NCBI GenBank assembly: GCA_927797885.1
Contig: OV696605.1
Coordinates: 2,393,157-2,457,156, forward strand
Length of the DNA stretch: 64,000 bases
Source: Gloeomargaritales cyanobacterium VI4D9
GTDB taxonomy: Bacteria; Cyanobacteriota; Cyanobacteriia; Gloeomargaritales; Gloeomargaritaceae
Reading direction: 5' to 3'
Translations under genes and position numbers: made by a program
Shown: piece after piece, positions 1 to 12,077 of the stretch
How positions within the stretch are numbered: position 1 is the first letter of the stretch
Layout: each line of letters begins with the position of its first letter
The notes under the pieces: model-generated
What the model was told of the DNA's origin: nothing
Seen by the model: only the letters and a program-made list of their open reading frames with translations
The model's database searches: none

Positions 1-788
1 AAATCCCGTTCCGCTCGAATTTCTTTCGTATTAATTAAACTTAAAACCAAACTATCAACCAAGGGCGCACGAAACTCCTCAATCAAATCCGAAACCAAAC
101 CCAAATGCCCATGATGATCCGTGTGCAAAGTTCCCACCCTCGGATCAAGTCCTTGGAACTCCACCAAAAGCAGGACATGATTCCACAGCACCTGATAGCC
201 AAAACTCAGCAGAGCATTCACCGGATTCGCTGGGGGTTGCCGGGAACGCCCCATCAACACAAACCCCTCCCCCCGCAAACATTCCCCCAACGCCGGGAAA
301 TAGATAGCCGCCGCCGCCCCCTCGATGCCCCGCACCTGGTCGAGGGTCTGGCATCGCCCCAGCCGTTCCGCCAGCCATTGCAGGGAATCAATCACCCGTT
401 CTGTCCCCGTGACCCCATAGCGCCGGTAATGACGTAATAATACTGTACGACTATTGCGGATTTTGGCACGTACGATCACTGCCGCCATTCGCACCTGCCA
501 AGCCTGGGAAGTTTGCCTTTGCGCCAGATAGCAGACCCAAGACCCCCATCCCACTGGCAACGTCCGCCCGTAACACCAACCACTGCGGGACAGATACGCC
601 AAGGGGATGTGGTGACCTAAACACGCCCGTACCGCCTGGGTGGTGATTTGCACCATACCCAAAAGCATGACCGCTTCCAGCAGAGGCAGTTGCCCGATGC
701 ACCGCCGTTGTTCGCCCCGCTTCAGGTACAGTTGCTCTGCGGATACTCCCACAACCGCTCCCTGCTCGACCAAGTACAATGTCCGCAT
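1..788 (-). CDS. cas1: CRISPR-associated integrase Cas1 (C-terminus cut by window start)
   Basis: Cas1 integrates new spacers into CRISPR arrays as a metal-dependent integrase working with Cas2. The frame stays open from the ATG at 788 to the window edge, giving 262 residues of a protein usually near 330. The N-terminus (MRTLYLVEQGAVVGV) has the beta-rich Cas1 start. The helical domain carries RGIEGAAAAIYFPAL with the conserved Glu (about residue 156). Further on are GTLHTD with the metal-binding His (about 222) and LIEEFRAPLVDSLVL with acidic residues near 237. The ATG follows directly on the stop of the upstream small membrane-protein gene (TAG then ATG), so the two are probably translated from one message. 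cas2 and the array may lie beyond the left edge. Identity is confident; the end is not visible. Confidence 0.93.
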   Translation of the reverse strand, partial: MRTLYLVEQGAVVGVSAEQLYLKRGEQRRCIGQLPLLEAVMLLGMVQITTQAVRACLGHHIPLAYLSRSGWCYGRTLPVGWGSWVCYLAQRQTSQAWQVRMAAVIVRAKIRNSRTVLLRHYRRYGVTGTERVIDSLQWLAERLGRCQTLDQVRGIEGAAAAIYFPALGECLRGEGFVLMGRSRQPPANPVNALLSFGYQVLWNHVLLLVEFQGLDPRVGTLHTDHHGHLGLVSDLIEEFRAPLVDSLVLSLINTKEIRAERD

Positions 789-1323: not shown

Positions 1324-2793
1324 ATGACCTTCACGGTGATGACCTTTGCCCCCGTCCAGGGCTTCATCGAGCGTTCCCGCAAACTGCGTGACTTGTACGG
1401 TAGCTCGTTCATTTTGTCCCACCTTGCCCGTGCCCTCTGCGAAGCGGGACAGCAGGCACTGGGGGAAAATGCTCTCGTTTCACCTGCTTTAATCAACGTC
1501 ACCCAGGGGACTCCCAACCAAATCATCCTGGCCGGAGAATTCCCGGAAGCCGAAGGACGGCAGGCACTATTAGACACTTGGAAAGAAATTGTCAATCAAT
1601 GTCGCACCTGGATTGAACAGCAAATCCCCGCCGAATATACCTGGAAACGACACTGGGATTTGTGGGGAAACCACGCCTGGGAATTTTTCTGCGGGCATGG
1701 GGATACCATCACGGAAGCAAGAAAAGCGGTTAACCGAGCGAAACGCAGTCGGGATTGGGTAGGCATCAACTGGCAGGGAGAAAGTTCAACTTTGTCTGGG
1801 GCGGATGCCATTGCCTGGCCGGGGCTAGGGCGCAAACGAGACAGCCGCAATATCCGCATGAGTGATGATGATGCAGAAATCAAAGACTTTTATAAAAAAT
1901 TACAATCCCTAACCGCCTTGGGGGAAGCCTTTGTAGATGAAACGGAACAGTTGAGTATTCCCGAACTAATCAAACGCCTCGTTACCTATCATGTGGTTGC
2001 CAAACAGATTGGGATTCAAAGCGAAGTTCCGGCAAGTTTTCGGGATATTAGCCGAGAACAAAGAACCTTTTGGTTTGCTGGCGATGGGGATAGAATCGGT
2101 GAATATTTTCGGCAACTCAAAGAAAACGGCCAAGATGAAGGCAAAGTCCTCCATGAATTCAGCCAAGCCATGTTGGAATGGGGAGAAAATAAATTAAAAC
2201 CAGCAGTAGATAACAAAATTGGCCGGATTGTTTATGCCGGTGGGGATGATTTTTTAGGGGTTTTATACGAAGCAGATGCCCACAAGTTTTCACCCCACGC
2301 ATGTCTAGAGTGGTTTGCTAAGCATTTCGATCCACTTTGGAAAGAACACAAACAGAAGATTACCGTGAGTGTGGGTGCAGTCTTAGCGGGTAAACAAGTA
2401 CCCCAGCGGGATATTTTGCAACAGGCGCGGGAAGCGGAACAATCAGCCAAAAAACAAGGCCGTGACCGTCTCGCTCTGCGGGTTTTATTCAACGGGGGCA
2501 ATCACATCGAATGGGTCTGCCCCTGGAAGTTTTTAGAACCTATATTTAGCAATTATCGTGACCGAGATGGGGGTAAAAATTGGACGCATATTTACAATGA
2601 CGTGGCGGTTTTAGAATCCCGGCGAGGGTTAGCGAGTCCCGATGTGGCTCTCGCCCTTTTTGAAGTTTATTTTGGCACCCGAAACCGGCAAACACTAGAG
2701 CAAAATCCTGGTTATTACATCGGTACAGCCAGCATTTCTGATTGGGTCAGCAACTTAGCAAAAGTAGGGTTTCAACTATGTTCCAATACCTAA
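1324..2793 (+). CDS. cmr2: Type III-B Cas10 (Cmr2) lacking the HD nuclease domain
   Basis: Large subunit of the Cmr effector. It has 489 residues against roughly 800 or more for most Cmr2. The protein opens directly with the first palm-like segment (FAPVQGFIERSRKLRDLYGS), so no N-terminal HD domain and no HD motif are present. A second cyclase-type palm begins near WFAGDGDRIGEYF (residues 250-262), followed by the intact YAGGDDFLGVL motif with GGDD at 306-309. Known role of the family: on target RNA binding the GGDD palm makes cyclic oligoadenylate; the HD domain, where present, cuts DNA. From this I infer a signalling-competent protein without DNase. It is the first gene of the cmr operon; cmr3 starts inside its last codons. 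An alternative start is the ATG at 1339. Confidence 0.9.
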   Translation: MTFTVMTFAPVQGFIERSRKLRDLYGSSFILSHLARALCEAGQQALGENALVSPALINVTQGTPNQIILAGEFPEAEGRQALLDTWKEIVNQCRTWIEQQIPAEYTWKRHWDLWGNHAWEFFCGHGDTITEARKAVNRAKRSRDWVGINWQGESSTLSGADAIAWPGLGRKRDSRNIRMSDDDAEIKDFYKKLQSLTALGEAFVDETEQLSIPELIKRLVTYHVVAKQIGIQSEVPASFRDISREQRTFWFAGDGDRIGEYFRQLKENGQDEGKVLHEFSQAMLEWGENKLKPAVDNKIGRIVYAGGDDFLGVLYEADAHKFSPHACLEWFAKHFDPLWKEHKQKITVSVGAVLAGKQVPQRDILQQAREAEQSAKKQGRDRLALRVLFNGGNHIEWVCPWKFLEPIFSNYRDRDGGKNWTHIYNDVAVLESRRGLASPDVALALFEVYFGTRNRQTLEQNPGYYIGTASISDWVSNLAKVGFQLCSNT

Positions 2794-3758
2794 TCACCTT
2801 AGAGCCGTTGGGCTTTTTGTACGGGAGTGCCGGACGCTTCCTCTCCCCTGATAATTTGGTAGGCCGTGCCGGGGTCAACTTTCCCCCCAGTGCCGCCACC
2901 TTGTCCGGTCTGTTTGCCGCCCATTACGGTGCAGAAGCCATGACCATTGATACGGGCTGGATGTTTGCCGGGCCATTTTGGAGCATGGTTCAAGACCCCC
3001 AGGATTTCTATGTACCAACCCCGATGAATTGTTTCGTAAAAGATGGTCGCATTGAACAGATTTTGCACTGGAATGGCGAAACTTGGGAACCAGAAATTGG
3101 TGGTAAATTCGACAAACGAGGTTGGCTACCCATTCGCCGGTGGCTAGAGATAAATTCAGGGCAAAAAATTGAGCCTGACCCCTGGGAATTTGCCCCGCAT
3201 TTACACCCCCGTTTGGAAATAGACCAACGCCGGGTACAAGCCAATGAAACCCAAGGCAGTTTGTTCCTAGAAAATGCAGTGATGCTCAAACCCGGAGTCT
3301 GTTTAACCTACCTGAGCAGTCACCCGTTACCCGCCGGTTGGTATCGTTTTGGGGGCGAGGGACACCTGGTGAATGTGCAATGCCATGACCTGCACGCCAA
3401 CACCCAAGAACTTCTGCAAAAACCAGCGGGTAAAAACTTTGCCACCATTACCCCTGGACTATGGGGTTCCAACCGGCTGTCCTACCGCTGGCCGATGCAG
3501 GAGCAGGATCAACCGATTTGGCCTGATCCAGTGGTGCTCACCGAGCGTCCTCAACCCTATCGCTATCGCCTGGGGGGAACCGGCACTGGTCGCCGTTTAT
3601 CCCGAGGTCGCTATGCTGTCCCGGCTGGAACCGTTTATGTCCTGAAAGAACCCCTTGACCCTTGGCACACTTGGCCTGAGGCGTGGTTCCCCAGGGAGGG
3701 CTATTCCCTCAAACGTTGGGGCTGTGGACTGTCATTACCTTTACCAGACTTGAATTAA
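2778..3758 (+). CDS. cmr3: Type III-B RAMP protein Cmr3
   Basis: Cmr3 binds the crRNA 5' tag and contacts Cas10 at the foot of the Cmr complex. The 326-residue product has the family N-terminus: a RAMP beta strand (FQYLITLEPLGFLYGSAGRF) followed by LVGRAGVNFPP and PSAATLSGLFAAHYG, which corresponds to the PSxxTLxG helix of Cmr3. The ATG at 2778 overlaps the cmr2 end by 16 bases, implying coupled translation; a longer reading from 2742 would add residues with no family resemblance. A glycine- and arginine-rich stretch (RLGGTGTGRRLSRGRYAVP, about residues 269-287) may be the G-rich loop. Order and overlap in the cmr operon support the call. Confidence 0.85.
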   Translation: MFQYLITLEPLGFLYGSAGRFLSPDNLVGRAGVNFPPSAATLSGLFAAHYGAEAMTIDTGWMFAGPFWSMVQDPQDFYVPTPMNCFVKDGRIEQILHWNGETWEPEIGGKFDKRGWLPIRRWLEINSGQKIEPDPWEFAPHLHPRLEIDQRRVQANETQGSLFLENAVMLKPGVCLTYLSSHPLPAGWYRFGGEGHLVNVQCHDLHANTQELLQKPAGKNFATITPGLWGSNRLSYRWPMQEQDQPIWPDPVVLTERPQPYRYRLGGTGTGRRLSRGRYAVPAGTVYVLKEPLDPWHTWPEAWFPREGYSLKRWGCGLSLPLPDLN

Positions 3759-3776: not shown

Positions 3777-4601
3777 ATGTATCACAAAGCCTACGGCATC
3801 ATTGAAACCCTGGCACCGCTTCATGTAGGAGCTAGTGCTGGCGAAGAAACGGGCAATTTGAATTTGATTTTTCGGGATCAATTTACCCAAACGGGCATCA
3901 TTCCTGGTAGCTCGATTCGGGGGCGATTTCGTGCCGATATGCGCTCTGGGCAAAACAAGGGCGATGTGAATAAATGGTATGGACATGAAGCCGTAGCAGG
4001 GCAAACTGATGGTGGGACTACGGAAGCCTTGGTAAAATTTGAGTATGCTTCGCTGGTGTGGTTCCCAGTATTTTGTCCAGGGCAGCCGGTCGTTTGGGTT
4101 TCTTGCCCCCGTTTACTCCAACGTTATCAGATGATTACGGGTCTCAAGGAAAAAATTCCCCAACCCTATACGGCGGATAATAGCCTGCAAGCCAAGCAAT
4201 TTAGTGACCAAAAAACCACTCGTAAAATTCTATTTTTCAACCTGGGTTTTATGGAAATTGAACACAACCAAGATATGCAACCTTGGATTCCGGTCGGCAC
4301 CCATTTGCACAAAAATAGCCTGGTGGTGGTGGGGGATAATGATATTGCCATGTTGCACGATATGGGACTCTATCGGCAGAGCCGGGTCAAACTCCAAGAT
4401 GATATGAAGAAAGTGGCTGGAGGAGCATTTTTTAATGTGGAAGCCATCCCGGAAGGGAGCGTCTTTATTTTCCCCATTGGGCTGAAACAAACAGGGTGGG
4501 ATCCCTTTGCGGGGGCATCGGAACAGGAAATGTACTTTGGCGGTTTAGAATCCGTTGGTTTTGGTCGGTGTCGGGTGACGTTAGTAGGAGAATACAAATA
4601 A
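3777..4601 (+). CDS. cmr4: Type III-B backbone RAMP protein Cmr4, catalytic Asp position occupied by Asn
   Basis: Cmr4 forms the helical backbone of the effector and, in characterised systems, cuts target RNA at six-base steps with a loop aspartate. The 274-residue product has the usual start (YGIIETLAPLHVGASAGEE), the loop GNLNLIFRDQFTQTG and the glycine-rich helix cap IPGSSIRGRFR; a second Gly-rich segment (YFGGLESVGFGRCRV) is near the C-terminus. By my by-eye alignment to the xxDLPIxREKHT loop of family members, the catalytic Asp falls on Asn29; Asp34 lies nearby but replaces the Glu of PIxRE. A strong AGGAGG (3767-3772) precedes the ATG. The stop overlaps the cmr5 ATG in TAATG. Family membership is good; loss of slicing is inference. 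Confidence 0.84.
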   Translation: MYHKAYGIIETLAPLHVGASAGEETGNLNLIFRDQFTQTGIIPGSSIRGRFRADMRSGQNKGDVNKWYGHEAVAGQTDGGTTEALVKFEYASLVWFPVFCPGQPVVWVSCPRLLQRYQMITGLKEKIPQPYTADNSLQAKQFSDQKTTRKILFFNLGFMEIEHNQDMQPWIPVGTHLHKNSLVVVGDNDIAMLHDMGLYRQSRVKLQDDMKKVAGGAFFNVEAIPEGSVFIFPIGLKQTGWDPFAGASEQEMYFGGLESVGFGRCRVTLVGEYK

Positions 4602-4993
4602 TGGCTTGGCACACTTACGGTCTCGATCAGGAAGCCCAAAAACTGGTTTTGGCGGCAAAACGTCGGAATCCAGACTCTCTCAATCAGGGCTACAAAATGC
4701 GGATGGCAGTAGCCTACGGTTTGGAACGTTTTTGGGGTGAACATTTGCGATTGCAGGAGCGGGAAGCTGATAAATCTCGCTATTGGAAAGAGACCTGGGA
4801 TACGCTGGTTCGCATTGCCGGACAAGCTCATATCACCATTCCCAATGATGCTGTTCATCATAACAACGTCCAACAAATTCATGCTATGTCGCAAAGGTTG
4901 TGGAGCTTAAGTTTAGAAGACCAACGGATTGCTCTGGCGGTACTCACCCAACTGTGTGACTGCATTGTTTGGTGGACACAACGGTACAAGTAA
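4601..4993 (+). CDS. cmr5: Type III-B small subunit Cmr5
   Basis: Cmr5 is the small alpha-helical subunit lying along the target strand in the Cmr complex. The 130-residue product is helical and basic, with conserved-looking features such as GYKMRMAVAYGLERFWGEHL near the N-terminus and a Trp-rich end (LCDCIVWWTQRYK). Position and size (usual length 120-150) fit Cmr5. The ATG shares one base with the cmr4 stop. No catalytic motif is expected. The assignment rests on operon position, size and helical character more than on strong motifs. Confidence 0.78.
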   Translation: MAWHTYGLDQEAQKLVLAAKRRNPDSLNQGYKMRMAVAYGLERFWGEHLRLQEREADKSRYWKETWDTLVRIAGQAHITIPNDAVHHNNVQQIHAMSQRLWSLSLEDQRIALAVLTQLCDCIVWWTQRYK

Positions 4994-5029
4994 TTAACGC
5001 TTTATTTATCCTTAACTTTGGAGCCAATC

Positions 5030-6712
5030 ATGCCCCCCATTCCTGATGTGATCAACAAAGTCCCCATGATGTACCGGGCGCAGGTTGATGGAAGGTGTCA
5101 ATTACAACGTTTGGTGCCTAAAGCCGATGAGCAACACGCCCAACGGTGGACAAAAGAATGGACGGAACGCACCTACCCCCACGCACCGCAGTTCGGCAAA
5201 GACGTTCAAACTCGTACTTATCAAATCAGTTGGCGATTTGTGACCAATGCGGGTCAAGATGATGGGATTATCCGCCCGGTGATGGGGGCAAAGGGATGGC
5301 CTTTTTATCCGGGCAGTAGTATGAAAGGTTTATTTCGTAGTGCCTGCAATTCCCAACAAAAAAAACGCTACTGCGGTTATGAATTATCCAATGGGGACAT
5401 GGCTCCGGGAATTTTGCGCTTTCACGGTGGTTATCCTACCAATAAAAAATGGGTGGAGAAACTTCTGGATTTAGTTCATCCCCAACAGGATTATCAAGTC
5501 AAAAAAGGGAATGCTAATCATTCAGCCTTTATGATGATCTCTTTATACCAGCCGGAATTGCAATTTGGTATCTCCAGCACTGAGGATTTATCAGAGCAAG
5601 AGTGGGCAGAAATTTGGCAGATTTGGGAAAAAGCGATGGCGAAAGGACTCGGTAGCCGGGTCTGTGCCGGGTATGGACATCCCAGTAGTATCAGTGGTGA
5701 TGAATTGTATTCCCCGCACCAGATTCATGGACGGGGTATGGCTTCCAAAACCCTCAGTGGAGCCGAATTTCGCCCTAATATGTTCCGAGCCGCCATCCGA
5801 GGTCATGCCCTAAGAATTTTTGGGGGTTTAGTCCCGGCCAATATCGCTGAGAGGGAAGTAGATAAACTCTTTGGCGGACTAGGGCACGGAGAACCCATTG
5901 TTGGTTTAATTGGGATGAAATTTGTTGCGGATAATTTAACACTTGGCAGACATGGTCATGGTCGTTTTGAAGTCCGCACCTATGATGTCACTGGAAAACT
6001 CAGTTGGTTATTGACTCGCCCTTTACCGGATGTTCAGCGGGAAGCCTTGAAAAACCTGATTTTGAGGTTAAATCAATTTGCCATGATTTTGGGGGGATTT
6101 GGCAAGTCCTGGCGACGCATTGACCATCCTTTGTTTTTCCCAGAATACTACAATAAACCTAATAAATCCTACATCGGCTGTCATTGGGAATGGATGGATA
6201 AATTCCAACGGGATGTACAAATTGCCGCACCGAAACATTTACAACAATTTATGGATACCCGCTTGCTCCCAGCAGCCAAAGAGTGGCTAAGACTCCAAGG
6301 GGTTACTCTAAACAACCAATATGCCCAGGAGTGGCGGGAATCTTGGCATCCAACTAAAGTTCAAGTATGGGGGCGAATTGCTCAAGATGAAGAAGATTCG
6401 ATTGCCGTCCACTGGTTTCATCAGCCCTACTACAGCGATAATAGACAGGGCATTAAAAAAAGTATCAAAAACACTTCTTTGACTGGAAGATTAGGAACTA
6501 TTGGCCGCATCTGGCATCGGATGTACCCCAAATTCAACTTTTCTCAAGGGGATACCCCAAAAAGAACAAAGGGATATGTTGAATTGATCACGATCTTCCC
6601 AGACCAATCGCCTGAGTGCAGACAGTTTTTAACCTTCTTACAACAAGAACAACAGGACTTCCAGAAAGTTTGGCCGGTAGATACAGTAAAACCCTCTGCC
6701 GGAAAGGAATAG
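5030..6712 (+). CDS. Double-RAMP Cmr protein: Cmr6-like unit fused to a Cmr1-like unit
   Basis: At 560 residues this is about twice the length of Cmr6. The first RAMP unit has WPFYPGSSMKGLFRSAC (RAMP helix cap) and ends with the Gly-rich loop KGLGSRVCAGYGHP, both typical of Cmr6. A second unit follows: SGAEFRPNMFRAAIRGHALR, which matches the Cmr1-type 'RP..IRG..R' motif, then KLFGGLGHGEP and a second Gly-rich loop (ILGGFGKSWRRIDHP), then a C-terminal region of about 170 residues of unclear fold. No separate cmr1 is present, so one polypeptide probably supplies both head subunits. I chose the ATG at 5030; a TTG at 5018 is less likely. It is the last gene of the operon. Fusion is read from two complete RAMP cores; the Cmr1 label is inference. 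Confidence 0.8.
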   Translation: MPPIPDVINKVPMMYRAQVDGRCQLQRLVPKADEQHAQRWTKEWTERTYPHAPQFGKDVQTRTYQISWRFVTNAGQDDGIIRPVMGAKGWPFYPGSSMKGLFRSACNSQQKKRYCGYELSNGDMAPGILRFHGGYPTNKKWVEKLLDLVHPQQDYQVKKGNANHSAFMMISLYQPELQFGISSTEDLSEQEWAEIWQIWEKAMAKGLGSRVCAGYGHPSSISGDELYSPHQIHGRGMASKTLSGAEFRPNMFRAAIRGHALRIFGGLVPANIAEREVDKLFGGLGHGEPIVGLIGMKFVADNLTLGRHGHGRFEVRTYDVTGKLSWLLTRPLPDVQREALKNLILRLNQFAMILGGFGKSWRRIDHPLFFPEYYNKPNKSYIGCHWEWMDKFQRDVQIAAPKHLQQFMDTRLLPAAKEWLRLQGVTLNNQYAQEWRESWHPTKVQVWGRIAQDEEDSIAVHWFHQPYYSDNRQGIKKSIKNTSLTGRLGTIGRIWHRMYPKFNFSQGDTPKRTKGYVELITIFPDQSPECRQFLTFLQQEQQDFQKVWPVDTVKPSAGKE

Positions 6713-6817: not shown

Positions 6818-7738
6818 CTATCTTCCACGACGTAGCCCCTTTTGATGCTCTCTAGCCTCCCTCCAGGGCATGACTTGATAGCCCTCAGAACGGCTCTTAT
6901 CCACGACCTTGACCAAAGGCTCCGTTCCCATCGTGCTTAGGTAGCGGCGGGGGATGTCAAGGCAGAATCCCTGAGCAATGGCCTCAGCGTACCAGCGGTC
7001 AAACTCATCCATCTCAGGTACGGGTGCCTCCAAGGGTACATTCGGTTCCGCCCCATCTCGAATCATCTGTAGGAGGCAACCCGCAGGGTTCTCCACCACA
7101 TGTTGCGAGCGGTACTGTTCAAAGGCTGCAATCGCCAGCATGACCTTTTCGGGCTTGTGTTGTTTAATCTCACACTGGAGGCGCACACCTAGCTTTACAC
7201 CCAAAGTTTCCAGCTTCTGTACAATGTCTGGATCAATGTCTGAGGCGGTGCTGGGGGCTACCGCTTGGAGTGCCACAACCTTGGAGGTGGGGCGAGGTTC
7301 AGTGAACTGCCGCAACAACTCCCGCAAGCGTTCTATCTCATCGCGTAACTCGAAGACCTCAGCGACATGCCCTCGGTACTGTTCGTTCTGGCGTTTTAGC
7401 TCTTGAATCTCAGCCTCTAGCTCCTTGATGCGCTTACGGGCAACCTCATGCAGGGTCTTGAGGCTGTAAGACCCAGGCTCAGGCTCTGGTGGTAAAGGCG
7501 CAAGCTGCCGGGATTGTTCCTCGCGGAGGGACTGAATGTAGTCCTTGACCTCCGGCCATTTGTAGAGATAGCTGATAGAGACTTGCGCCACACGAGCAAC
7601 CGCTGTAAAGGTGATAGGTTTACCCTGTTGTTGGAGCGCCCGTACCGCCGCAAACACCTGCTGCTGCTTCTGCTCTTTGCGGTGCTGTTGTGCCTGGCGG
7701 AGCGTTTCCGTCTGCTTCTCACGATTGGCTCTAACCAT
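6818..7738 (-). CDS. Helix-turn-helix/coiled-coil accessory protein of the recombinase module (TnpC/DUF6262-like)
   Basis: The 306-residue protein starts with a basic Gln/Lys-rich helix, then a probable HTH (ITFTAVARVAQVSISYLYKW, about residues 42-61), then a long heptad-like coiled coil (about 95-150). This layout matches the small TnpC/DUF6262 proteins that accompany Tn554-type recombinases and influence orientation and efficiency of insertion. Those are usually 120-150 residues; here an extra 150-residue C-terminal part contains VENPAGCLLQMIRDGAEPN, reminiscent of a motif in some replication-initiator or DnaD-like proteins. It is the last gene of a four-gene leftward set; its ATG overlaps the preceding stop by 8 bases. 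The accessory role is inferred from context and architecture. Confidence 0.68.
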   Translation of the reverse strand: MVRANREKQTETLRQAQQHRKEQKQQQVFAAVRALQQQGKPITFTAVARVAQVSISYLYKWPEVKDYIQSLREEQSRQLAPLPPEPEPGSYSLKTLHEVARKRIKELEAEIQELKRQNEQYRGHVAEVFELRDEIERLRELLRQFTEPRPTSKVVALQAVAPSTASDIDPDIVQKLETLGVKLGVRLQCEIKQHKPEKVMLAIAAFEQYRSQHVVENPAGCLLQMIRDGAEPNVPLEAPVPEMDEFDRWYAEAIAQGFCLDIPRRYLSTMGTEPLVKVVDKSRSEGYQVMPWREAREHQKGLRRGR

Positions 7739-9542
7739 TGGCCACCTCCCTGAGTTGTGGTAGCCACTGCTTCATCGCTTCCACAGTCGCTTTAGCCTCC
7801 TCGTAGGCCAGCTCCGCGCCTGCCATCTGTGCTTGTTCCATACGCTGTACTTCGTTTTGGTACTGCCGCTCGTAAAGGGACAGCTTGCCAGTGCTGGGTC
7901 GGAAACTACTACAGCCGTAGCACTTGGGGTAAAGGTTGTGAGGGCAGGGGGTCTTGGGGTCAAGGGCGCAATGGCCGTAGACCGTAAGACGCGGGTTTAT
8001 CTCAATGTCTAACTCGTGGGCTTTAGGGTTTTTCAGCAGGCTCTCGGGCAGGGATTGCCAGGGCAGGAACTTGTTGTCGGGGTTAAGAAGTAGCTCTTGG
8101 AAGGGGAGGTCAGCCGTTGCAACCTGCTCACGAGTGGGTGGGGCGTAGTGCTGAAAGGTTGTTGTGCTGGAAACGTGGTCGGCGTAGAGCTGAGCTGCTT
8201 CTATCCCGTGCTTGACCCGTATCTCTTGGAGGCGACTAGGGCGGGTGATTCGACCCGTGAAGTGGGGCTGTTGTCCGTTGCTGTCGCGGATGTCCTCTGC
8301 TTCAATGAGGTAGCGAATCGCTCGTACCATTGGGTTATCATCAGCGTCCGGCTTAGGTGGTTCTGGGAGAGGTTTAATGCTTATGAATTTGGGGTAAGAG
8401 TCCTTTCTGAAAGACCTGAAGTGGCAGAACAAGTAATTGTAGTTTGTGCCTAGAGTCTCCTGTATCCAGGTTTGTTGGGCTTCGATTGTGCGCCGGATTT
8501 CCCGTGTAGCAGGTAACCGATGCCAACGCTTGGTTTTCTGCTGAAAGAAACGGATGTACCACTTACCGTTTTCCTCAACGAGGCAGTCGAATTGCATCTG
8601 GCAGACATCACCAGGCCGAGCAGCCGTATACTCCTGTATTAAGTAATGCCTTGCTAGTGGCTCAGGTAGTTTGTGCAGGTGTGTCTTGATAGCAGAACGA
8701 GTGGGTTCATCCAACCATACGGGGTCATCATGGCGGATTTTAGGTAAGTCTCTTCGTTTGACTAAGGTTTCAGCCTCAAGTCCAGCCCAACTCAAAAACT
8801 CCTTCAGTAAATAGAGTTTTGTGTATACTGTCTGCCCCTTCATGCCTTTCCAAACATCAATCAGGCTCAGAATATCACTACGCTTGATGTCTTGCAGTGA
8901 TGAACATTTTCTTTGCTTAAGCACTTCGCCCAACTGTCCCAGCACAGCACGGATGGCACGGATTTGGGATGTTGAAGAATACACTTGAGCTTTGAGTAGG
9001 TAGTGTAAATACTGTTTTGCCTGCAAGCAGAACCAATCAGGTTCAATGCCATCGAAGGTAAGGAGTCGGTTGTAGGGTCTGTCGTAGAAGTGCCGTAAGT
9101 CCCAGGTACTAGCGTCAAAGTCAAAAGGAAGCAGTTCTTGCGACTTCTGCCTACCCTGCCAGCTTGTTTGAGCGTTACATGAAGGCTTAAAAATTGTATT
9201 GCAATAGCGACATCTGCCGTACCCTAAATCGTTACATTTGTAAATCCATCCCCTTTGACCTCTTGGACCAATGCCAGTACAAAGAGGGTTAGGGCATTCC
9301 AAGTCTGCTTGATAGTTGTAGATGTAAGTAGGATTTTCACATGAAAGGAAAGTGTGCTGACTGCAGGAGTCGCATCCAAGACGGACACCATTACTATGAA
9401 CTGAGAAATAAGCCTTAGTAAGTCTTCCTTGATTGCACTGTGGGCAGGTAAACTCGCCTTTGTAGTCTTGAAGCCAATTCACTTCAAGAATCCCGTTGAG
9501 TGTTTGATGCCTTGAAATTGGTAGGTGTTTACGCTGACTCAT
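7731..9542 (-). CDS. Zinc-ribbon tyrosine recombinase, third of three
   Basis: The 603-residue protein has N-terminal zinc-ribbon pairs (FTCPQCNQGRL...CDSC and ECPNPLC...CNDLGYGRCRYC), an SAM-like core-binding region, then a tyrosine-recombinase domain: TAARPGDVCQMQF (box I Arg), QKTKRWHRLP (Lys hairpin), a box II reading GRITRPSRLQEIR, and ADHVSSTTTFQHYAPP with the final His and the nucleophile Tyr. The expected His of HxxR in box II is not evident. A Cys/His cluster (CALDPKTPCPHNLYPKCYGC) and a coiled coil close the protein. Tn554 TnpB is similarly large. The ATG overlaps the upstream recombinase stop by 14 bases, so the set is translationally coupled. DNA target and activity are unknown. 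Confidence 0.75.
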   Translation of the reverse strand: MSQRKHLPISRHQTLNGILEVNWLQDYKGEFTCPQCNQGRLTKAYFSVHSNGVRLGCDSCSQHTFLSCENPTYIYNYQADLECPNPLCTGIGPRGQRGWIYKCNDLGYGRCRYCNTIFKPSCNAQTSWQGRQKSQELLPFDFDASTWDLRHFYDRPYNRLLTFDGIEPDWFCLQAKQYLHYLLKAQVYSSTSQIRAIRAVLGQLGEVLKQRKCSSLQDIKRSDILSLIDVWKGMKGQTVYTKLYLLKEFLSWAGLEAETLVKRRDLPKIRHDDPVWLDEPTRSAIKTHLHKLPEPLARHYLIQEYTAARPGDVCQMQFDCLVEENGKWYIRFFQQKTKRWHRLPATREIRRTIEAQQTWIQETLGTNYNYLFCHFRSFRKDSYPKFISIKPLPEPPKPDADDNPMVRAIRYLIEAEDIRDSNGQQPHFTGRITRPSRLQEIRVKHGIEAAQLYADHVSSTTTFQHYAPPTREQVATADLPFQELLLNPDNKFLPWQSLPESLLKNPKAHELDIEINPRLTVYGHCALDPKTPCPHNLYPKCYGCSSFRPSTGKLSLYERQYQNEVQRMEQAQMAGAELAYEEAKATVEAMKQWLPQLREVANG

Positions 9543-10968
9543 GCTGATTTTCCTCCCGCATTTTTTGTAGCTCAGCCAATCCCCGCAGACGATTGTTCAC
9601 ATGAATCTCGGTTACGCGCCGCTCTTGTTGAGCTATTTGGGCACGTTCAAGGTCAAGCTCCATTTGTTGCTTATCTGCCTCTAGTTGTGGAATGTCTGCT
9701 TCTGTAACTCGGTGATGGGTGCAACTTAGGCAGGCGTAGCGGTACTGGCAATCGCCCAACATACTGGGGCGATGGCACTCACCAAGGGGAGTCGTAACCT
9801 TCATCAGGTCAGCTAACTTTTCGTAGCGTTGCTTGCGGGGCTGCCCGTACATATCCACGTAGCCCTTGGTTTCTGCCTGTTTCTCTAGCCGCTCCAACGA
9901 CCGCTTACGGTAGTGAGGCAACATGTCGAGAGAGCCATGCCCTAAAACCGCAGCAATGTACTCGTCTTTAACTTCGCAGTACGCCATCACACTAGCCTTG
10001 GTACGACGAAACATGTGGCTGGTGAGAGGAAAAGGCTTGCCCTGCTTGTCCTTGAGATTGGCAACTTCCCTGAACGCTTTGAGCCATAAGTGAATTACCG
10101 TAAACGACAAGGGGCTAGGCTCATAAACAGGCTCAACTTGAAAACGCCCTCCCACGACTGCCCCGTCCCTAAGTGCTGTGGATGCTTTACAGAAAAGTCT
10201 GTTGAACTTAGAGTCCTTGCCAAACTGTTCGTCCAAAAAACGTTGTTGCTCTTGCACTAACTCGGCAACCAGAGGATGCACCTGGAAATAACGCCAGTGT
10301 TTACGTTTGGCTACCCAGCGTAGTAAAAACCAGTGCTCTCCTTCCTGCTTGAGGCAATGGCGTGGCATGAGTAGCATTTCGTTGATGCGGCACCCTAAAG
10401 CAGTTTGTAACCGAAACAAGCGTTCCAAGGGCGCAGGAAAAAGGTCAAGTTGCTCGTAGATTTGGTGCAACACCTCTTCAGGAATAGTCTCAACCTTGGG
10501 TGTCGGCTTCCTCATTCGCATAGGAGTGAATGGCAGCGTCAACCAGCCCTCCTCTGTCCAAAGGCGTGTTGCAAATACCAAGGTGCTGTGCCGATGCCCC
10601 TTGTTAGCCTCTGAGATGAACGTTTTCAGGAGACTGTCTGTGATGCCTATGGGTTGGCTGTAACCATGAGCTAGCAAAAACTCATTGAGGTGGGCTAAGC
10701 AGAGGGTATCGGTAATGATTCGGCTGGCTGAACACTTCTCTCGCACCCGCGCCTTCGCCGTAAGTTTGGCTAAATAATTCAGCCAAGGAAGCGTAATGCG
10801 CGTGAAATGGACGTTCTTTGCGCCGTGAACACAACACTGTTCCTCGTCAAATCCCAAGGCTGTGAGCGGCCAAACATCTTGTTGCATCAGCGGGTCATTG
10901 CACCACTGACTACCTAGCTCTGATTGCTTAACTCGCTCATGCAGGTCAGCTAAGGGTAAAGCACTCAC
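9529..10968 (-). CDS. Tyrosine recombinase with C-terminal zinc finger/coiled coil, second of three (TnpB-like)
   Basis: Site-specific recombinase of 479 residues. Catalytic residues are all visible: Arg194 (LGCRINEMLL), Lys near 221-223, His318 and Arg321 (SHMFRRTKAS), His344 (VLGHGS) and Tyr353 (PHYRKRS). After the catalytic domain comes a Cys/His-rich segment (GECHRPSMLGDCQYRYACLSC) and an acidic coiled coil (about 425-475), a tail also seen in Tn554 TnpB proteins. The start is GTG, overlapping the upstream TGA in GTGA. It belongs to a four-gene cassette with two other recombinases and an accessory protein, the composition expected of Tn554- or RIT-like elements. Confidence 0.85.
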   Translation of the reverse strand: MSALPLADLHERVKQSELGSQWCNDPLMQQDVWPLTALGFDEEQCCVHGAKNVHFTRITLPWLNYLAKLTAKARVREKCSASRIITDTLCLAHLNEFLLAHGYSQPIGITDSLLKTFISEANKGHRHSTLVFATRLWTEEGWLTLPFTPMRMRKPTPKVETIPEEVLHQIYEQLDLFPAPLERLFRLQTALGCRINEMLLMPRHCLKQEGEHWFLLRWVAKRKHWRYFQVHPLVAELVQEQQRFLDEQFGKDSKFNRLFCKASTALRDGAVVGGRFQVEPVYEPSPLSFTVIHLWLKAFREVANLKDKQGKPFPLTSHMFRRTKASVMAYCEVKDEYIAAVLGHGSLDMLPHYRKRSLERLEKQAETKGYVDMYGQPRKQRYEKLADLMKVTTPLGECHRPSMLGDCQYRYACLSCTHHRVTEADIPQLEADKQQMELDLERAQIAQQERRVTEIHVNNRLRGLAELQKMREENQHESA

Positions 10969-12077
10969 TGGTCTTCCTCCTCATCCATAAAACTTTCTAA
11001 ACTCATCTCATCGAGAACATGGCTGTAGATGTCTTTGGTGGTGCTGATGGAACGATGGCCAAGCAATTGCTGCACATACTGGTCGGGGTAGCCTTTCTGG
11101 AGCATTCGTGTGGCAAAAGTGTGGCGGAACAGATGTGGGTGCGCTTTGATGCCAGTACGACTGTGCAATTCTTCAAAGAGCTTGTTCAGTCGCACAAGGC
11201 TCATGGGCTGGCCGCGTTGCTCCCCCTCTAAGGAGACAAACAGCATGCCATGACCAAGCTGTTCTGCTTCGGGCGGATACTCCTCTAGCAGGTAAGAACG
11301 CAACACCTCTTGCACAGTGCGACGGTTGTGCAGGATAGGCACAACTCGCTCAGTTCCTTTCGCCCAAGCACCGTTGGGATTATCACGCCGGACAACACGC
11401 AACCGCCCTGTCACATCCACATCCTGAACATCAATCAGATGCAACCCCAGTAGCTCTCCACGGCGCAGACCCGTCTCACGTAAGAGCATCACAATCAGCT
11501 TGTCGCGGTAGCAGAGGCAACCTTCAACCAGGCGCACGACATCCGCATCACTGAGGCAACCAGGAAAGACCTTGGGTTCTTTGAGCTTGAGCCGCTTACG
11601 ACGCTCCGGCCCGCTCTTGACGATGCCCCGCAGAAAACCACCACGTTTGCCCCAGCCGTGAGCTAGCTTGATAAATCGCTTATCATCAATCCGCCCCTCC
11701 GCCGCATGAAACTCATACAACCCTTGAATGGCGGTCATCGCCTGGTTGACTGTCTTGGGGCTACGCTTGGAAACTCGCTCCCTTGAGGACTCGTGGATAA
11801 CCTCTACATCACCCCCGAGCAAATACCAGTTTACGAAGTCGGCCAACTCATCTAGTCCAACACCATCCCAGCTCAAGGCTTTGTACTCCAGCCACCGCCA
11901 GTAATCCACCAAGCGGTAAGCGTAGGTTTCGACCGTGTTGGCCGCTAACCCTCGCTTCCGGCAGTAGTTCAGAAATCTCTGAATTGGTTCAACGGGCAAA
12001 CAGGTCTTGGAGTCAAACACGCAACGAAAGTGCTCACCTGTGGCGGGGTCAATCGCTGTCTCTACGGTCACACTCAT
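10965..12077 (-). CDS. Tyrosine recombinase/integrase, first of three (TnpA-like)
   Basis: A 370-residue XerC/D-type recombinase. The N-terminal SAM-like domain (about 30-130) binds the core site, and the catalytic domain has the full set Arg205 (TGLRRGELLGL), Lys240 (WAKGTERVVPI), His315 and Arg318 (HPHLFRHTFA), His341 (LLGHRS) and nucleophile Tyr351 (DIYSHV). Size and motifs match Tn554 TnpA. It starts with ATG at 12077 and leads the leftward cassette; its stop overlaps the next GTG start by four bases. Likely role: strand exchange to insert or excise the element; the attachment site is not identified. Confidence 0.88.
   Translation of the reverse strand: MSVTVETAIDPATGEHFRCVFDSKTCLPVEPIQRFLNYCRKRGLAANTVETYAYRLVDYWRWLEYKALSWDGVGLDELADFVNWYLLGGDVEVIHESSRERVSKRSPKTVNQAMTAIQGLYEFHAAEGRIDDKRFIKLAHGWGKRGGFLRGIVKSGPERRKRLKLKEPKVFPGCLSDADVVRLVEGCLCYRDKLIVMLLRETGLRRGELLGLHLIDVQDVDVTGRLRVVRRDNPNGAWAKGTERVVPILHNRRTVQEVLRSYLLEEYPPEAEQLGHGMLFVSLEGEQRGQPMSLVRLNKLFEELHSRTGIKAHPHLFRHTFATRMLQKGYPDQYVQQLLGHRSISTTKDIYSHVLDEMSLESFMDEEEDQ

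Follow-up and report, generated by a model that had tools for sequence, protein, structure and literature searches.

A Cmr6-Cmr1 fusion protein in a divergent clade of cyanobacterial type III-B CRISPR systems

The gene at positions 5030-6712 of the window (the whole 64,000-nt stretch of DNA analyzed here) encodes a protein that, according to profile comparisons and predicted structure, is a Cmr6-Cmr1 fusion with both units in one chain, as the sequence-only reading had proposed. Most likely, this protein caps the crRNA 3' end in a type III-B (III-Bv-like) effector that senses its target and signals without slicing it. The fusion itself is already known from the Microcystis 'Cmr1-6' protein and from the Synechocystis III-Bv system; the protein described here belongs to a second, shorter and very divergent clade.

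Results

The fusion gene and its conserved motifs

The reading frame is uninterrupted from ATG at 5030 to TAG at 6712 (560 aa). The mechanical frame begins with TTG at 5018, while the start favoured by the relatives is the ATG at 5030. The features of the gene are as follows.

5030..6712, plus strand: cmr6-cmr1 fusion gene, 560 aa, a single frame; 75 of 80 related loci likewise have one frame across both units
5030..5704, plus strand: Cmr6 unit, residues 1-225 (RAMP core about 61-220), assigned by profile-profile comparison, TIGR01898 matches in relatives and a PDB profile search
5300..5335, plus strand: helix-cap motif 1, PFYPGSSMKGLF, residues 91-102, core conserved in relatives
5645..5677, plus strand: Gly-rich loop 1, GLGSRVCAGYG (Cmr6), residues 206-216
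5705..6709, plus strand: Cmr1 unit, residues 226-560, with a predicted second Cmr1 domain at the C end, assigned by profile-profile comparison, PDB profile search, TIGR01894 matches in relatives, and AF2 modelling with Foldseek
5768..5803, plus strand: motif 2, FRPNMFRAAIRG, residues 247-258, aligned by hhalign with the RxxxxxxxLRFWWRA helix of T. thermophilus Cmr1
6092..6118, plus strand: Gly-rich loop 2, GGFGKSWRR, residues 355-363, aligned by hhalign with Cmr1 GGIGARTRRG

Two helix-cap motifs and two Gly-rich loops had been noticed in this order in the 560-residue protein, and all four are present where they had been placed. In 17 relatives with identity down to 36%, the invariant residues are G95, S97, K99, G100 and F102 in the core of motif 1; G206, G208, G214, Y215 and G216 in the core of loop 1; F247, R248, N250, F252, R257 and G258 in the core of motif 2; and G355, G356, F357, G358, S360, W361, R362 and R363 in loop 2. 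Because these core residues are invariant in 17 homologues, the four motifs are real features of the family and not chance occurrences.

The N-terminal half is a divergent Cmr6

The two RAMP units proposed for the protein are separated cleanly by profile comparison, with the N-terminal half leading to Cmr6 and the C-terminal half to Cmr1. The reference set comprised eleven stand-alone sequences of Cmr1, Cmr6, Cmr4 and Cmr3, taken from typical III-B operons. Residues 1-225 match stand-alone Cmr6 in hhalign with E 4.6e-12 alone and 5e-23 with the long-fusion relatives added; the match to Cmr4 is weaker, and that to Cmr1 and Cmr3 is not significant. Cmr6 chains also stand at the top when the N-half profile is compared with all PDB sequences, and the N halves of 30 of 39 relatives scanned singly match TIGR01898 (Cmr6). 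The window protein itself scores 22 bits with this model, below the curated cut-off of 51.1. Taken together, the profiles identify the N half as a divergent Cmr6.

The C-terminal half is a complete Cmr1

Residues 226-560 of the short type give no match when compared alone with the stand-alone Cmr1 profile. They match the C half of the long fusions with E 1e-16 (profile-profile), residues 61-552 being co-linear with a long fusion (hhalign E 8e-32), and with the long fusions added the C half matches stand-alone Cmr1 with E 9e-9 (hhalign). The same enlarged profile gives no hhalign match to Cmr6, Cmr4 or Cmr3, and the reversed-profile controls of both halves give no match either. Among PDB sequences, the top three for the C-half profile are all Cmr1: the Pyrococcus protein (E 4e-5), a fusion of Cmr1 with MntA, and the Archaeoglobus protein. 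In 77 C halves scanned singly, the sole family matched is TIGR01894 (Cmr1), found in 14 of them. The window protein does not match TIGR01894, its Cmr1 half is also missed by general Pfam and NCBIfam models, and its single-sequence search against the PDB gives nothing useful, so that profiles are needed. Thus, by these comparisons, it is a divergent homologue that lies outside the TIGR01898 and TIGR01894 equivalog sets.

The predicted full-chain structure is multi-domain, of moderate confidence (pLDDT 77.8, pTM 0.79), rather than the single-domain fold that would speak against a fusion. Its Foldseek search is ambiguous, as many Cas7 proteins match and multi-Cas7 chains of III-D and Cas7-11 rank first; therefore a separate model of the C half was made and used for the search. 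The AF2 model built from 77 sequences (pLDDT 94.8, pTM 0.92) has a single significant Foldseek match in the PDB, chain A of 9l7c, over 325 residues (E 8.8e-8, TM 0.55). The entry 9l7c is an A. fulgidus III-B effector, and we read its chain A as Cmr1, since the PDB profile search lists 9l7c under the Archaeoglobus Cmr1 sequence. In the predicted structure the final ~160 residues form the second Cmr1 domain; profile comparison by itself misses it. The second unit had been placed at residues 240-420; this range holds the first Cmr1 domain, while the predicted unit extends over about 226-560 and is a full Cmr1 including its second domain.

Could the C half instead be another Cas7-family unit, such as a duplicated Cmr6 or Cmr4 or a Csm5-like cap, with no Cmr1 function? 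The blank comparison of the short-family C half with the Cmr1 profile, the lack of an NCBIfam match of the window protein in this region and the III-D and Cas7-11 chains leading the whole-chain Foldseek search are what such a unit would give. However, Cmr1 is the only match once the long fusions are added, three Cmr1 chains lead the PDB profile search, and the modelled C half fits Archaeoglobus Cmr1 over its whole length with nothing else significant, which makes this alternative extremely improbable.

Operon and genome context

The fusion gene is the last one of an operon in the order cas10, cmr3, cmr4, putative cmr5, fusion.

1..788, running beyond the window, minus strand: cas1, identified by eye; divergent, upstream of the operon
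1324..2793, plus strand: small cas10/cmr2, 489 aa; GGDD at residue 306, HD motif absent; PF12469 and PF22335 over cut-off; profile-profile to Cmr2 E 1e-30
2778..3758, plus strand: cmr3, 326 aa; profile-profile to Cmr3 E 1.3e-13
3777..4601, plus strand: cmr4, 274 aa; PF03787 over cut-off, TIGR02580 match; catalytic Asp replaced
4601..4993, plus strand: putative cmr5 (Cas11 position), 130 aa; conserved at this place in 74 of 80 loci

Similarity of the 130-aa protein to Cmr5 profiles is undetectable, and its assignment is by position only. The type III-B components seen are Cas10/Cmr2, Cmr3, Cmr4, Cmr6 (residues 1-225 of the fusion) and Cmr1 (residues 226-560). The operon had been read as having no separate cmr1, and none was found there; nor does a stand-alone cmr1 appear elsewhere in the complete 3.16-Mb genome in searches with PF03787, TIGR01894 and the family profile. 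Small Cas10s that lack the HD motif occur widely, Thermus being one example (PMC8376896). Directly downstream of the operon, on the minus strand at 6818-12077, three consecutive tyrosine recombinase genes and a gene for a DUF6262 protein resemble a Tn554-type transposition module.

Beyond cas1, outside the window, lie cas2 and then an array of 128 repeats. Maturation by RNase E in III-Bv systems leaves a 5' handle of 13-14 nt. The last 13 nt of the repeat here, ATTTGTTGGAAAC, resemble the end of the Synechocystis CRISPR3 repeat, ATTGATTGGAAAC, which is the handle of its crRNA (PMC3575380). No Cas6 was found in the whole genome with PF10040 and PF01881 at E 0.1, a search that a very divergent Cas6 could escape. 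This fits III-Bv, the crRNAs of which are made by RNase E according to the title of Behler 2018 (cited in PMC12475003).

The genome has a second full III-B locus (L006, genome positions 3076000-3095000) encoding a 1009-aa Cas10, a 629-aa Cmr6-Cmr1 fusion and CARF proteins, and it has a cas1-like gene and an array of its own; several genes scattered among these look, by eye, like members of the Uma2 family. CARF-type proteins are encoded there and not beside the window operon, and thus any signal may act through shared effectors.

Distribution and history of the fusion

The genome collection yielded 164 related stretches, and the counts of loci given here cover the 80 listed of these 164. All 80 are cyanobacterial, and in 75 of them one intact frame spans both units. 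By sequence, the window protein falls into a short, very divergent fusion clade, seen only in cyanobacteria among the 80 listed loci. In the short-clade loci the median Cas10 is 580 aa long, and GGDD is retained in 62 of the 64 frames counted. No relatives of the fusion were found in viral contigs, and no phage association is seen.

The long fusion type matches both TIGR01898 and TIGR01894 in CRISPR3 of Synechocystis pSYSA and in Microcystis. Across 291 genomes of the phylum, Cyanophyceae with a Cmr1 match carry it in a frame of fused size (541-702 aa) with two exceptions, a broken fragment of 120 aa (G311) and a second match in a 386-aa frame (G306). Cyanobacterial III-B systems have the fusion as a fixed trait. 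One genome of the same phylum outside Cyanophyceae encodes Cmr1 as a stand-alone protein twice, with 473 aa (L172 1841-3259) and with 529 aa (L173 957-2543).

Three groups are distinct in the Cmr4 tree: the short type, which has support 100 and a very long stem, the long type, and the systems with separate genes. We also considered whether the window belongs to the same clade as Synechocystis CRISPR3; the tree sets it in the separate short clade, hence the label 'III-Bv-like'. In three systems (L157, L158, L159), which belong to other classes of the phylum, Cmr6 is followed by Cmr1 in one chain of 928-981 aa, and each domain scores above its curated cut-off. In the Cmr4 tree these systems group with the separate-gene systems, where branches are long, so that an independent fusion event in this group is possible. 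These large proteins carry extra N- and C-terminal regions.

Cleavage or re-initiation might also divide the joined chain into separate Cmr6 and Cmr1 proteins, in which case their stoichiometry would not be truly fixed. In a genome of the same genus (G006, locus L019) the frame shifts within a run of C near residue 233, almost precisely where the units meet, giving separate Cmr6 and Cmr1 frames; splitting may therefore be tolerated, an error of the draft assembly being equally possible. Against this, the single frame is kept in 75 of the 80 listed loci, and the tagged Microcystis fusion was purified within a five-protein complex (PMC11855584). We consider such separation very improbable and keep to a single chain.

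Two further features were observed near short fusions. In four loci (L047, L062, L064, L100) the short fusion gene is present in two tandem copies, some of them broken. Directly 3' of several short fusions there is a gene for a protein of ~500 aa (L017 3154-4647, L018 3066-4592, L020 3059-4654, L024 3151-4668), which has no Pfam or NCBIfam match and an N-terminus, WIVTVGSSDV, that looks CARF-like by eye.

The slicer residue of Cmr4

Cmr4 cleaves the target RNA via an Asp in the motif G-x-[IV]-DLPI, which by our own count we take to be Asp27 of T. thermophilus Cmr4. In the window Cmr4 the motif is replaced by GNLNL-I, and the catalytic Asp is gone. In the Cmr4 alignment the slicer Asp is present in 11 of 11 separate-gene systems vs none of 89 fused-cap systems, the latter sharing ancestry and thus representing few independent evolutionary events. 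The position is occupied by Asn in all 71 short-type proteins and by Leu, Met or Val in all 15 of the long type (including Synechocystis CRISPR3), and it is non-acidic in all three other fused systems; moreover, the aligned loop is one residue shorter in the cyanobacterial types. The fusion and the slicer loss occur together also in a third lineage, outside Cyanophyceae, which may point to a functional link. From this one residue position we infer a loss, or a strong change, of RNA cutting in fused-cap systems.

Alternatively, systems with the same fused cap may still slice their target, some other acidic residue standing in for the lost Asp. The short-type Cmr4 does have acidic residues a few positions upstream (AGEETGN), and the authors of the Microcystis study hypothesised Asp-dependent Cmr4 cleavage (PMC11855584). 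Still, every examined Cmr4 of both cyanobacterial clades combines a GNLNL- or GNLLG-like loop with the one-residue deletion, and we regard continued slicing as unlikely. The main text of the 2025 classification (PMC12669027) names neither Cmr1 nor Cmr6, and in the passages found it describes no cyanobacterial III-B system without the Cas7 Asp.

Discussion

Comparison with known systems

A study of 2025 described a fused 'Cmr1-6' protein from Microcystis (PMC11855584). Like the window operon, Cluster 4 of Microcystis aeruginosa FACHB-524 has Cmr6 and Cmr1 in one protein next to separate Cas10, Cmr3, Cmr4 and Cmr5, with no stand-alone Cmr1 (PMC11855584). That fusion is probably of the long type, as CDD finds both domains and the Cas10 is larger, whereas the window protein is of the short type. 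The latter resembles the proteins of Clusters 3 and 5 of the same study, in which only Cmr6 was recognised, an equivalence that we infer; the presence and function of Cmr1 in these clusters were left open by PMC11855584.

CRISPR3 of Synechocystis PCC 6803, a III-Bv system (pSYSA, SGL_RS01025), also has a fused Cmr6-Cmr1 and a Cmr4 without the slicer Asp. Its Cas10 is larger (979 aa), and its 649-aa fusion is 21% identical to the window protein; the true sibling of this system in the genome studied here is the second locus at 3.08 Mb, the 629-aa fusion of which is 44% identical to the Synechocystis protein.

The stand-alone Cmr1 and Cmr6 of Thermus, Pyrococcus and Archaeoglobus share with the window fusion the fold, the motifs and the presumed position at the 3'-end cap, but are encoded by separate genes. 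In such systems cmr1 lies ahead of or inside the operon and cmr6 is the last gene, hence the fusion required cmr1 to move behind cmr6. Cas7-11 (III-E) and the III-D multi-Cas7 proteins likewise join Cas7-family units in one chain; those chains unite backbone Cas7 (and Cas11) units, while here just the two cap units are fused, Cmr4 and Cmr5 remaining separate. A Cas7-11 identity, considered for this protein, was rejected, as it needs four Cas7 units and Cas11 in one chain.

Proposed role of the fused cap

The known Cmr complexes have Cmr6 and Cmr1 as their cap at the crRNA 3' end, and the two help to expose the region where target pairing starts (PMC8376896). The fused Cmr1-6 of Microcystis assembles with Cas10, Cmr3, Cmr4 and Cmr5, and E. 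coli was protected about ten-fold from T4 (PMC11855584). By analogy, the window protein most likely acts in the same way, one chain giving both cap units at 1:1. The Cmr6 unit would sit on the last Cmr4, the linked Cmr1 unit would form the tip, and each complex would receive the two at a fixed 1:1 ratio. The fused cap may then cradle the 3' end of the crRNA, where target pairing begins; binding of the target RNA would turn on the Cas10 palm and the production of a signal molecule, and the Cmr4 backbone would leave the target uncut.

More tentatively, and at somewhat less than even chances, cyanobacterial III-B systems as a whole may constitute a 'signal-only' branch of type III, with a fused cap, a slicer-less Cmr4 and a target that is sensed and not cut, the short clade having a small HD-less Cas10 whose cyclase site is intact.

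What is new here is the evidence that the divergent short clade holds a full Cmr1, the breadth over which the short-clade fusion is conserved, and the co-occurrence of the fused cap with the loss of the Cmr4 slicer residue. For the question raised by PMC11855584, whether 'Cmr6-only' cyanobacterial proteins contain Cmr1, sequence and predicted fold answer yes, assuming that those proteins are of the short type. As the Cmr4 of CRISPR3 in the laboratory strain Synechocystis 6803 lacks the slicer Asp, the complex of this system is predicted to bind its target RNA and to signal while leaving the RNA uncut. Elsewhere in type III, cleavage of the target helps to turn the signal off, and signal-only systems would thus need another off-switch. 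Finally, a permanently joined cap would be a simple means of probing how the guide's 3' end determines the length of the complex and the seeding of the target.
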